From Eubacteriales bacterium (GTDB lineage: Bacteria > Bacillota > Clostridia > Lachnospirales > Lachnospiraceae), in assembly GCA_030524745.1 (NCBI GenBank), contig JAUNGC010000004.1:1-64000 (forward strand): a stretch of DNA of 64,000 bases. Direction: 5' to 3'. A program made the position numbers and the translations under genes. Below the pieces are notes generated by a model, which worked only from the letters and a program-made list of their open reading frames with translations, had not been told where the DNA came from and did not search any database. Shown here piece by piece: positions 57,530-60,379 of this stretch. Each line of letters begins with the position of its first letter. The first letter of the stretch is position 1.

Positions 57530-58285
57530 ATGAAAAAGCTGACATCGTTACTTTTAACCTTCGTGCTCGTGCTTGCCTGTGTTGGCTGCGGAGCCGCGAA
57601 TGAAAGCGCCGGCGGCGATGATACTGCGGATGTGAAATCCGAAGGCGTTATGACTTATGATGAATACATTGCCGCAGATCTTGAGTCGGAAGTTGTGGTT
57701 GAGACTTATGTGCAGGCAACACAGAGTTGGTGGGACAATACGATTACCGTTTACAGCCAGGATAAGGACGGCGCTTATTTCCTGTACAATATGGCCTGCT
57801 CCGAAGAAGACAGCAAGAAGCTGACACCCGGAACCAAGATCAAAGTGACCGGATATAAGTCGGAATGGGCCGGTGAAGTTGAGATCATTGATGCGACTTT
57901 TGAATTTGAAGAAGGAAGTTATATCGCCGAAGCGAGGGATGTTACGCCTCTTCTGGGAACGGATGAACTGATCAGCCACCAGAATGAATTCGTATCCTTT
58001 AAAGGTCTGACTGTGGAAGCTGCCGGTCAGGACGCGGACGGAAACGATGTGGCGTTTTTGTATGCATGGGATGGTTCCGGACAGAAAGGCGACGATCTGT
58101 ACTTCAACGTTTCCTTAAACGGCGAGACCTATACTTTTACGGTGGAGTCTTATCTGTGCGGTGAGGACACGGATGTTTACAAAGCGGTAGAAGCGCTCAA
58201 TATCGGCGATGTGATTGACCTGGAAGGTTTCCTGTACTGGTACGAGGGCGTAAATCCTCATATCACCTCTGTGACTGTAAAATAA
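57530..58285 (+). CDS. Secreted lipoprotein with OB-fold-like domains
   Basis: A 251-residue lipoprotein: signal peptide LLLTFVLVLACVGCGA (lipobox Cys near 20), acidic spacer, then two beta-rich segments, about 55-135 (VVVETYVQATQSWWDNTITV, KIKVTGYKSEWAGEVEI) and about 150-250 (EFVSFKGLTVE, INIGDVIDLEGFL-like). These look like bacterial OB folds (VxGxV...I..a.f). No enzyme motif. Strong promoter and single-gene unit with terminator. Confidence 0.72.
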   Translation: MKKLTSLLLTFVLVLACVGCGAANESAGGDDTADVKSEGVMTYDEYIAADLESEVVVETYVQATQSWWDNTITVYSQDKDGAYFLYNMACSEEDSKKLTPGTKIKVTGYKSEWAGEVEIIDATFEFEEGSYIAEARDVTPLLGTDELISHQNEFVSFKGLTVEAAGQDADGNDVAFLYAWDGSGQKGDDLYFNVSLNGETYTFTVESYLCGEDTDVYKAVEALNIGDVIDLEGFLYWYEGVNPHITSVTVK

Positions 58286-58354
58286 GGGACGGAACGCAGG
58301 AAAACCTTGGAAGAATTTTGTTCAGAGTCGTCTGAAAAAGAATAGGAAAAGCGG

Positions 58355-58408
58355 AAAGAGGGCTGCCGTTCAGCTAGAAATTTTAGCTAATGCGACTGCC
58401 CTCTTTTT
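58355..58408 (+). terminator. Terminator of the 57530 lipoprotein gene
   Basis: Stem AAAGAGGGC (58355-58363) with GCCCTCTTT (58398-58406), inner AGCTA/TAGCT helix, then T's. Confidence 0.8.
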
Positions 58409-58441
58409 ATACCTAGAAGAATAAGAATCTTTAAATTTGAC

Positions 58442-59591
58442 ATGCAAAAAAAGGAGAATATAATCTTGACAGACAGACAGACAGACAGACAGACCTGAAA
58501 TTAGTGTAATTATTCCTGTTTATAATCGGGAAAAAACGTTAGCGCGTTGCCTGAACAGTGTGCTGGCATCGGATTATGAATTTTTTGAACTGATTATTGT
58601 TGACGACGGTTCCACAGATAGTAGTTGGGATATTATAAATTCTTATAAAGATAAACGGATAAGAACTTTTCATAAAAGTAATGAGGGTGTGTCCAATGCA
58701 AGAAATACTGGAATAGATGCGGCAATGGGTGATTATATCCATTTTATAGACTCAGATGATTTTATTGAGCCGGATTTATATTCCAAGTGTGCAGATGTCA
58801 TTAAGCGAAGTTCTCCTGATGTGGTTATGTTTGATCACGGTGTATATTTCGAGAAGGATGGAAAGAAATATGAAGGCGAATCTATAGCTCTTGAGAAGAA
58901 CATATTGCTGGATCGTGAATACATAGTAAAGAATATTCTTCCGGTAATGGTAAATATCGATTCGCGGAAAGAATTGTTCATTCATAATTTTGTATGGAAC
59001 AAATTATGGAAAAGAAGCGTTATCAATAGCCATAAAGTTCGTTTTGATGAGTCACGGAACCGTTGGGAGGACAGGCTTTTTCAGGTCGCCTTTTTAAAAT
59101 GGGCCGAAACCTTTTTCTATATTCCTCAAAATGAATATTATTATGTACTGGGGAACAGCGTATTTTCCGGTAAATATGATAGCCAAGTTTTTGATATAGT
59201 TCTTAGAGGAAAAGAGGATTACAAAACTCTTCTGGATGGAATTTGTGTCTTCGATACGGATTATGAAAACAATTATTATTCAAGAGTATTCATTGAAACG
59301 ATCCTTGCGCAGTTCGGCATTCATGCAATTGACGAGGGGATATTTCAAAAGGATTTGCAGCGAGCGATTATCACAGAACGTGCGCAATGCCTGTTTGCGT
59401 CGTTTGAGGCCGCGACGGATTTTGAAAGAAAGGTAAAAGCGCACATTCTGAGGAGAGATGCAAGAGGGGTTTATTTACTGTGTAAATGTGAATATGCGAA
59501 AAGAAAGAACGAACAAGCTATGGAAGAAAGAAACGGGAAATCGATTTTACGCAGAACTGTGAAAAAAGTGAAAAGAATCCTGTCAAAATAA
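58442..59591 (+). CDS. Family 2 glycosyltransferase, phase-variable, out of frame as read here
   Basis: A GT-A fold glycosyltransferase of about 365 residues that would add a sugar to a surface polymer. PEISVIIPVYNREKTLARCL, IIVDDGSTDSSWDII, NARNTGIDAAMGDYIHFID and the metal-binding DSDD are clear. ATG 58442 and TTG 58466 lie behind AAAGGAG in one frame (MQKKENIILTDRQT...) that stops at TGA 58496 inside the (GACA)6.75 tract. The enzyme body from PEISV is in another frame, which has a TGA right before the tract and no start codon until GTG 58560. Removing one GACA unit joins start and body exactly. So gain or loss of a unit would switch the gene on and off. The sequence is AT-rich like a transferred surface-glycan gene. 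Confidence 0.8.
58468..58494 (+). repeat. Tetranucleotide tandem repeat (GACA) x 6.75
   Basis: Six full GACA units plus GAC (27 nt) directly after the start region of the glycosyltransferase gene, as in slipped-strand contingency loci. Confidence 0.95.
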
Positions 59592-59594
59592 TAG

Positions 59595-59626
59595 ATCGGC
59601 CGGAATGTTAATGAATTCCGGCCGAT
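59595..59626 (+). terminator. Terminator of the glycosyltransferase gene
   Basis: A 12-bp perfect stem (59595-59606 with 59615-59626, arm ATCGGCCGGAAT), then AATTTATTT, immediately after the stop. Confidence 0.7.
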
Positions 59627-59725
59627 AATTTATTTCGCCTGTCCAGAAAACTTTTTTCCGGGGACCAGATCGTCAGTTTCCACAGAGGACAATACGGTAT
59701 GCTGATCTTAGTGATACAGCATTCC

Positions 59726-60379
59726 TTACCTCCATAAACCGGATACAAAATACATAAGAGCGGCCCAGGTATAAACCGAATAGAAAATTCCTTCCGGATC
59801 TTTTCCCGCTTTCAGGATTTGTTCTGCCTCCTGCACGGAAAGAAGGCAAAAGCCGTCGAAACGTTCGCTTCCCACGGCGCCCGCCTGTGAAAGAGAGGAG
59901 GAATCCTCAGGATGAACGACAGCGCATACAAGCGCGTTGCTTTCATCCGTCATGCCGGGAGAAGAAAACAACAGCGGATTGATGATCGAAAGAACGTCGT
60001 TTTCTGCCAGATCCAGACCTGTTTCTTCCCTGATTTCTCTTCTGGCGGCAGAAAGGATGGGATCCGTCTGCGCTTCATCTGCAGGGTCCAGAAGTCCGGC
60101 CGGAGGGCTTAACAGGAACTGACCGGTGGGATAACGGAATTCTTTTGTCAAAAGCAGCCTGGGCGCCGCGTCTTTCATCTGCAGGATTACCACGCATGTG
60201 ACGGCGTCGGGAAGCGAAGCGCGAAATTCCTCGTCTGATTTTGCCGCCATAATGCGGTCCAGAGGCCGTCTGGTCGCGTCATAGTAATGCTTTCCCGCTT
60301 CATATTGCAGATCGAAGACCCTGATAAACTTTGATTCAAACAGCGTTTTAACATTTTCTTTGCGAATGATTGGTTTCAT
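59726..60379 (-). CDS. NUDIX hydrolase (ADP-ribose pyrophosphatase-like)
   Basis: A 217-residue NUDIX protein. The NUDIX box reads AARREIREETGLDL (about 126-139), preceded by SPPAGLLDPADEAQTD, whose PAG/PAGLLDP region is typical of ADP-sugar hydrolases. The usual Gly-to-Glu spacing is extended by a small insertion. It probably hydrolyses ADP-ribose or related nucleotide sugars. ATG 60379 has AAAGGAG 10 bp upstream; an extension to 60406 lacks a site. Confidence 0.85.
   Translation of the reverse strand: MKPIIRKENVKTLFESKFIRVFDLQYEAGKHYYDATRRPLDRIMAAKSDEEFRASLPDAVTCVVILQMKDAAPRLLLTKEFRYPTGQFLLSPPAGLLDPADEAQTDPILSAARREIREETGLDLAENDVLSIINPLLFSSPGMTDESNALVCAVVHPEDSSSLSQAGAVGSERFDGFCLLSVQEAEQILKAGKDPEGIFYSVYTWAALMYFVSGLWR

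Follow-up and report, generated by a model that had tools for sequence, protein, structure and literature searches.

Within the window, i.e., the whole 64,000-nt stretch of DNA that we analyzed, a GT2 glycosyltransferase (GT) stands as a lone gene, with a lipoprotein-like gene and, on the opposite strand, a NUDIX gene as its neighbors. In and around this GT gene we identified the following features:

58353..58408, + strand: terminator-like hairpin after the lipoprotein-like gene, with a T-run ending its 3′ arm; fold of −25.7 kcal/mol
58437..58442, + strand: −35 hexamer TTGACA, part of a 12/12 promoter match and at the position that recurs in the tract family
58442..58444, + strand: possible ATG start, in frame with the TTG at 58466 and without a visible Shine-Dalgarno (read from the sequence)
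58450..58456, + strand: Shine-Dalgarno AAAGGAG, 9 nt 5′ of the TTG at 58466 and within the promoter spacer (read from the sequence)
58459..58464, + strand: −10 hexamer TATAAT, spacer 16 (promoter scan)
58466..58468, + strand: TTG, the likely start codon (read from the sequence)
58468..58494, + strand: (GACA)6.75 tract, encoding DRQT in any frame and stop-free (sequence and TRF)
58494..59591, + strand: GT2 body, 365 codons plus stop, PF00535 at 1.2e-38, out of frame with the start in the assembly
59595..59626, + strand: terminator-like 12-bp hairpin 3′ of the GT gene (pattern scan, which lists it on both strands)

The tract is a perfect repeat of 27 nt (TRF: period 4, 6.8 copies, 100% match), and both the sequence and TRF bear out the original prediction that it separates an upstream ATG/TTG from the GT2 body. 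Also correct was the prediction that neither frame is open throughout: the frame shared by the ATG at 58442 and the TTG at 58466 meets its first stop at TGA 58496–58498, and the frame of the body is closed upstream, before any start, by TGA 58467–58469, the codon immediately 5′ of the tract. The first ATG, GTG, or TTG of the body frame 3′ of the tract is a GTG at 58560, beyond the first conserved stretch of the enzyme. The body itself (58494–59588) begins PEISVIIPVYN, contains no internal stop, and scores 133.1 bits against PF00535 Glycos_transf_2 (curated cut-off 23.3), placing it in GT2; its best PDB sequence match is 5hea GalT1 (8.9e-27). The locus thus has the makeup of an SSR contingency locus, i.e., a pure SSR that has a unit length not divisible by 3 and is situated in the 5′ part of the coding sequence, and an upstream start and an intact downstream body that are joined in one phase only. 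The same spacing of Shine-Dalgarno, 9 nt, and TTG precedes two tracts of L161. Searching the 3.57 Mb assembly for exact (GACA)4 gave no second site: its three matches are overlapping registers of this one tract.

The distance from the TTG to the body is 28 nt, a multiple of 3 plus one, and the arithmetic of the claim that one unit fewer would restore the frame is correct; the further statement that the full enzyme would then be made does not follow, since it overlooked transcription. A promoter with a 12/12 match (TTGACA-16-TATAAT), which the original prediction had not noted, stops 3 nt 5′ of the tract, making the locus a promoter-coupled SSR unit (score 12/12, offset 31). Our scan of both strands from 58200 to 59750 found 5 sites scoring at least 9/12 where shuffled sequences gave an expectation of 4.3, and only the perfect score and the position of this promoter stand out; it is also the sole + strand site of at least 9/12 between 58200 and the GT body. 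From the usual promoter spacing, its RNA would start near 58471, within the tract. Because this start would lie 3′ of both the Shine-Dalgarno and the start codon, the 12/12 promoter would be unable to supply a message for the full enzyme, and since the body frame offers no ATG, GTG, or TTG before 58560, its RNA would be useless for the full enzyme at any tract length. An ON state would therefore need transcripts from farther upstream, past the hairpin at 58353–58408, or alternatively from a weak promoter scoring below 9/12 in the scan from 58200. That hairpin (z −3.07, with 1 of 200 shuffles equally good) was missed by the pattern scan, which needs T after the stem with a loop of 3–8, and it would limit read-through into the GT gene. 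An in-frame unit count is thus necessary for the full GT and perhaps insufficient, and the original reading of the locus as a switch is plausible but incomplete. At gathering scores, Rfam matches in the window were limited to two tRNAs.

Tracts of this kind are common among relatives. Fifty of 397 genomes of the same family, our own genome included, contain (GACA)5 or longer, whereas the same-composition controls (AAGC)5 and (AACG)5 occur in 14 and 0 of the same 397 genomes; a reversed-pattern control was uninformative, as GACA read backwards gives the identical repeat. We compared tract lengths among 30 fetched loci that included the GT locus. For example, L037, L041, and L038 carry 5, 9, and 13 units between flanks that are identical at 297–300 of 300–301 aligned positions on each side, and L025 and L039 carry 6.25 and 13.25 units with flanks identical at 300/300 positions on each side. 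A third pair, L035 and L043 (12.25 vs 10.25 units), matches at 57/60 positions before and 296/300 after the tract, with similarity dropping to 203/335 over 300 nt before it. In addition, of 63 scorable mid-gene tracts, 19 are in frame, 23 are +1, and 21 are +2, with 3 more being ambiguous; the in-frame share was 0/5 in the family genomes, 5/20 in the genome contig records, and 14/38 in the viral records. The three phases are thus about equally common at mid-gene tracts, the distribution expected from free slippage. Phase variation is thus well supported by the tracts of relatives, and the prediction of a phase-variable GT stands in part: the out-of-frame GT2 at a pure tetranucleotide tract and the variation of the tract in relatives both hold.

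Two further observations concern the tracts themselves. In L035 and L043, the tract is directly followed by the ATG of a gene that begins like one for a signal peptide, and the number of units decides whether the upstream frame stops next to this ATG, overlaps it, or is fused with it; these loci may be three-state switches acting through translational coupling. Two contigs of a genome from the same genus (G009, C10 and C18) start inside GACA tracts, which may break short-read assemblies and hence be under-counted.

The position of the promoter relative to the tract recurs. We defined the geometry as a −35 hexamer matching at 5 or more of 6 positions, 29–36 nt before the tract, and a −10 hexamer of the form xAxxxT, with a spacer of 15–19 and ending 0–7 nt before the tract. 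Before counting, we dropped tracts that had less than 45–60 nt of upstream sequence, included N, or repeated the upstream 40-mer of another tract; L048, a mixed repeat, was left out of one count of TTGACA positions and was scored twice as a miss in the geometry test. Among the matches listed in a TTGACA-anchored scan (gap 12–42 nt), the first T lies 29–35 nt from the tract in 99 of 121 rows, the remainder among these listed matches being one at 38 nt, 19 with none, and 2 that were short. The possibility that this peak is a bias of anchoring on TTGACA is countered by scans that did not require TTGACA, in which the peak at 29–35 nt recurs among the matches listed. The 110 unique viral GACA tracts have TTGACA 46 times at 29–36 nt and once elsewhere within 80 nt, compared with 0 times and 5 times, respectively, on the opposite strand (100 tracts). 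The corresponding counts for 23 family GACA tracts are 15 and 2, with 2 and 1 on the opposite strand (22 tracts), and 42 viral GCAGA tracts have TTGACA 12 times, every time at 30–33 nt.

The full geometry gave the same picture. It is present at 16 of 23 family GACA tracts, with the GT locus among them, compared with 4 of 371 shifted positions at the same loci, and at 56 of 110 viral GACA tracts compared with 21 of 1807 shifted positions. Counts at the tract and at shifted positions were 12/42 and 5/685 (0.7%) for viral GCAGA, 14/62 and 15/970 (1.5%) for viral AAGC, and 5/10 and 5/145 (3.4%) for family AAGC; the shifted-position rate is 1.1–1.2% for the GACA sets and 0.7–3.4% over all sets. On the opposite strand, the geometry occurs at 3/22 family GACA, 0/100 viral GACA, 0/42 viral GCAGA, 1/61 viral AAGC, and 1/9 family AAGC tracts. 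Viral GATA (2/77) and CAAT (1/64) tracts were no different from the control, and the association of promoter and tract is not universal across repeat units. The tract sets are not independent, and we used clustering by flanks against pseudoreplication: 29 of 93 clusters have the promoter at least once and 64 of 93 lack it in every member, and with one random tract drawn per cluster, at least 24 had the promoter in 200 draws. The largest cluster, loosely held together by single linkage, contains 92 of 247 tracts.

Inside coding genes, TTGACA is read in two frames (64/77 and 13/77; the third would hold TGA), which places the constraint on DNA or RNA, not on protein, and we rejected an amino-acid-level cause (a Leu-Thr motif) on this ground. 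We also rejected a derivation of GACA from the TTGACA box, as AAGC and GCAGA tracts share the promoter. The bases of the −10 hexamer most important for melting are A-11 and T-7. Of 93 non-coding cases, 92 have both, as do 67 of 77 coding cases, compared with 29–30% of random windows; nearby control windows are not flat, reaching 43/77 and 49/93 at −20, and the enrichment is therefore partly local composition. Tracts with the promoter are longer in viral GACA (41 vs 31 nt, p 0.0009), viral GCAGA (53 vs 29, p 0.0002), and family GACA (48.5 vs 29, p 0.02; all one-sided), and AAGC tracts show no difference in length (p 0.42 and 0.23).

Among the genes at these tracts are surface-modification and DNA-modification genes, encoding for instance AMP ligases, acyltransferases, glycosyltransferases, HsdS, and DNA methylases; they are mostly of the kinds usually found to be phase variable. 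Ten downstream ORFs, picked by hand as recognizable from 26 rows (3 of which are one N-filled locus), gave Pfam matches to Acyl_transf_3 (five), AMP-binding (two), GT8, GtrII, and HisKA. Examples of genes with mid-gene tracts, also picked by hand, include HsdS, a C5 methylase, an EcoRI-type methylase, and a PAPS reductase domain; such hand-picked Pfam examples show kinds of gene, not frequencies. Five IMG/VR contigs (L193, L204, L238, L279, and L301) have mid-gene (GACA)n tracts in genes for a C5 methylase or a PAPS reductase domain, and two named genome records (L160 and L137) have them in EcoRI-type methylase genes. Most of these seven loci share the upstream promoter, and their methylase and PAPS reductase genes are candidate phase-variable DNA-modification genes.

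Taking these observations together, we propose, with a probability of roughly 70%, that the GT locus is an SSR contingency locus in which slippage in GACA switches the frame and a promoter fires into the repeat. Gain or loss of a unit would shift the frame between the upstream Shine-Dalgarno/TTG start and the intact GT2 body, and the lineage would thereby alternate at random between making the GT and not making it, the unit count in the assembly being the out-of-frame, OFF count. The sigma-A-type promoter is positioned such that transcription would begin inside the repeat, and it may raise the instability of the tract through an open complex, an RNA-DNA hybrid, or a polymerase stalled in the repeat; the message for the enzyme would come from farther upstream than this promoter. 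Transcription into repeats has been reported to affect repeat stability in E. coli, with CTG.CAG deletion and R loops described in the portion of PMC7015867 used here. We infer the switching of the GT locus, its transcription, and the role of the promoter from sequence, as we do the transfer of its sugar to a surface polymer. More tentatively, and at somewhat less than even odds, tetra- and pentanucleotide switches of Clostridia type and of phages, GT included, may carry a sigma-A promoter at a fixed distance as a cis-acting, transcription-driven mutator of genes for surface structures, defence, and DNA modification.

A quite possible alternative, although we lean against it, is that the promoter expresses genes or a small RNA and that repeats gather where melting at transcription starts lets them arise, with no selection for a mutator. 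By eye, the intergenic loci L030, L036, L039, L040, and L083 do resemble complete units of promoter, tract, hairpin with the repeat as its 5′ arm, and T-run, and the near-complete presence of A-11 and T-7 in non-coding cases also fits promoters that serve expression. This explanation is harder to reconcile with the same promoter lying inside HsdS, C5 methylase, and PAPS-reductase-like coding sequence, in genes where we saw by eye no obvious new start after the tract. In addition, among LLT/LLS sites of HsdS (L551–L580), TTG-AC is used by all 4 that precede a tract and by 2 of the other 12, one of these 2 lying at the end of a contig, beyond which there may be a tract; these numbers are small. 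We consider it slightly more likely that the promoter feeds instability than that repeats merely arise at transcription starts.

The genomic setting bears on a second, unlikely explanation, in which the GT is a dead or dying gene that lost its start through growth of the repeat, without switching. At 37% GC, the GT forms an AT-rich island (the window has 50%), it is out of frame in the assembly, and neither it nor the NUDIX gene was detected (tblastn, 1e-5) in approximately 1.5 kb after the corresponding lipoprotein gene of two relatives from the same genus (L055 and L056). No close homologue was found among 60 relatives, where the best match (2.0e-42) is 40% identical over residues 3–220, with some shorter stretches up to 52%; the GT query had no match passing 1e-45 among 298 other family genomes, for each of which at most 6 candidates were scored; and a scan of genome contig records, from which records near our own genome may be excluded, found no relative. 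Its own genome contains 29 matches, including itself, the best other being 39% identical. Composition and absence at the equivalent site also fit a recent gain of another accessory glycosyltransferase, and a dying gene is at odds with 365 stop-free codons, an intact GT2 domain, a pure tract, and the length variation and in-frame copies seen in other tracts of this class.

Very unlikely is an error of sequencing or assembly that conceals a fixed, in-frame unit count: the assembly is a draft of 63 contigs with a contamination estimate of 4.98%, but a 27-nt tract fits within one short read, and related loci from separate assemblies have many different unit counts. Least likely of all is a leader-peptide attenuator of the S. 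gallolyticus pil1 type, since, although intergenic loci with Shine-Dalgarno, ATG, tract, hairpin, and T-run seem present in the tract family, the tract and the GT body are contiguous, leaving no room for a terminator, and our scan listed none there.

Tetranucleotide loci of Haemophilus influenzae (GACA, CAAT, GCAA, and others) share the type of tract, frame-dependent expression, and glycosyltransferase targets. As described in the sections of PMC2651432 drawn on here, GACA units are known in that species, with one tract in the putative glycosyltransferase gene pgt1, and tracts are mostly located in the 5′ portion of the ORF; unlike the tract studied here, that of pgt1 sits in the 3′ region, and the word TTGACA is absent from the text of that paper. 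In Staphylococcus aureus, icaC likewise combines a Firmicute host, a tetranucleotide repeat (TTTA), and a surface-polysaccharide gene that changes frame reversibly by slippage, but it differs in having few units, late in the gene, and the available part of PMC4117637 mentions no promoter into the repeat. The pil1 and pil3 loci of S. gallolyticus resemble the GT locus as SSR phase variation in a Firmicute with a Shine-Dalgarno and start upstream of the tract; there, as described in PMC3894217, a terminator follows a short leader that contains the GCAGA tract, with RNA starting upstream of this leader, whereas at the GT locus the tract is continuous with the ORF of the enzyme and no terminator separates tract and gene. 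The remark in the original prediction that such loci are less described in gut Firmicutes is fair, yet SSR switches in Firmicutes have been published, as these last two sources show in the parts used. Eight loci in our set (L030, L036, L039, L040, L082, L083, L125, and L172) have a tract followed directly by a TCTGTCC-like 3′ arm and a T-run, some with a Shine-Dalgarno and ATG before the tract, and they look like repeat-switched leader attenuators of the pil1 type.

Promoter-spacing switches, as described in passages on the TA repeat of hif (PMC2651432), the poly-G of PorA (PMC3639595), and nadA (PMC2791445), also place a repeat next to promoter elements. At the GT locus, the repeat lies neither between the −35 and −10 nor upstream of the −35; it starts 3 nt past the −10, and the spacing of the hexamers is unchanged. 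Phase-variable hsdS and methylase systems provide a further parallel, in that HsdS and methylase genes of relatives and viruses carry the same promoter-plus-tract unit, the difference being that the gene studied here encodes a glycosyltransferase. Among titles and the openings of abstracts, with most subscription journals outside this scope, we found no published description of the spacing between promoter and repeat, which is weak evidence of novelty.

The best-described cases of SSR switching come from Gram-negative pathogens. A 2025 review (PMC11868660) lists among the open questions that phase variation at many loci seems confined to pathogens, and it asks how widely this is distributed across phyla and phages. 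Tracts of the GACA type are common in one bacterial family and also occur on viral contigs. If a promoter is indeed held at a fixed spacing and directed into the repeat, even within coding sequence, the instability of the repeat would itself be transcription-driven, and the old question of what determines how often a contingency locus switches would become directly testable by the removal of one hexamer.
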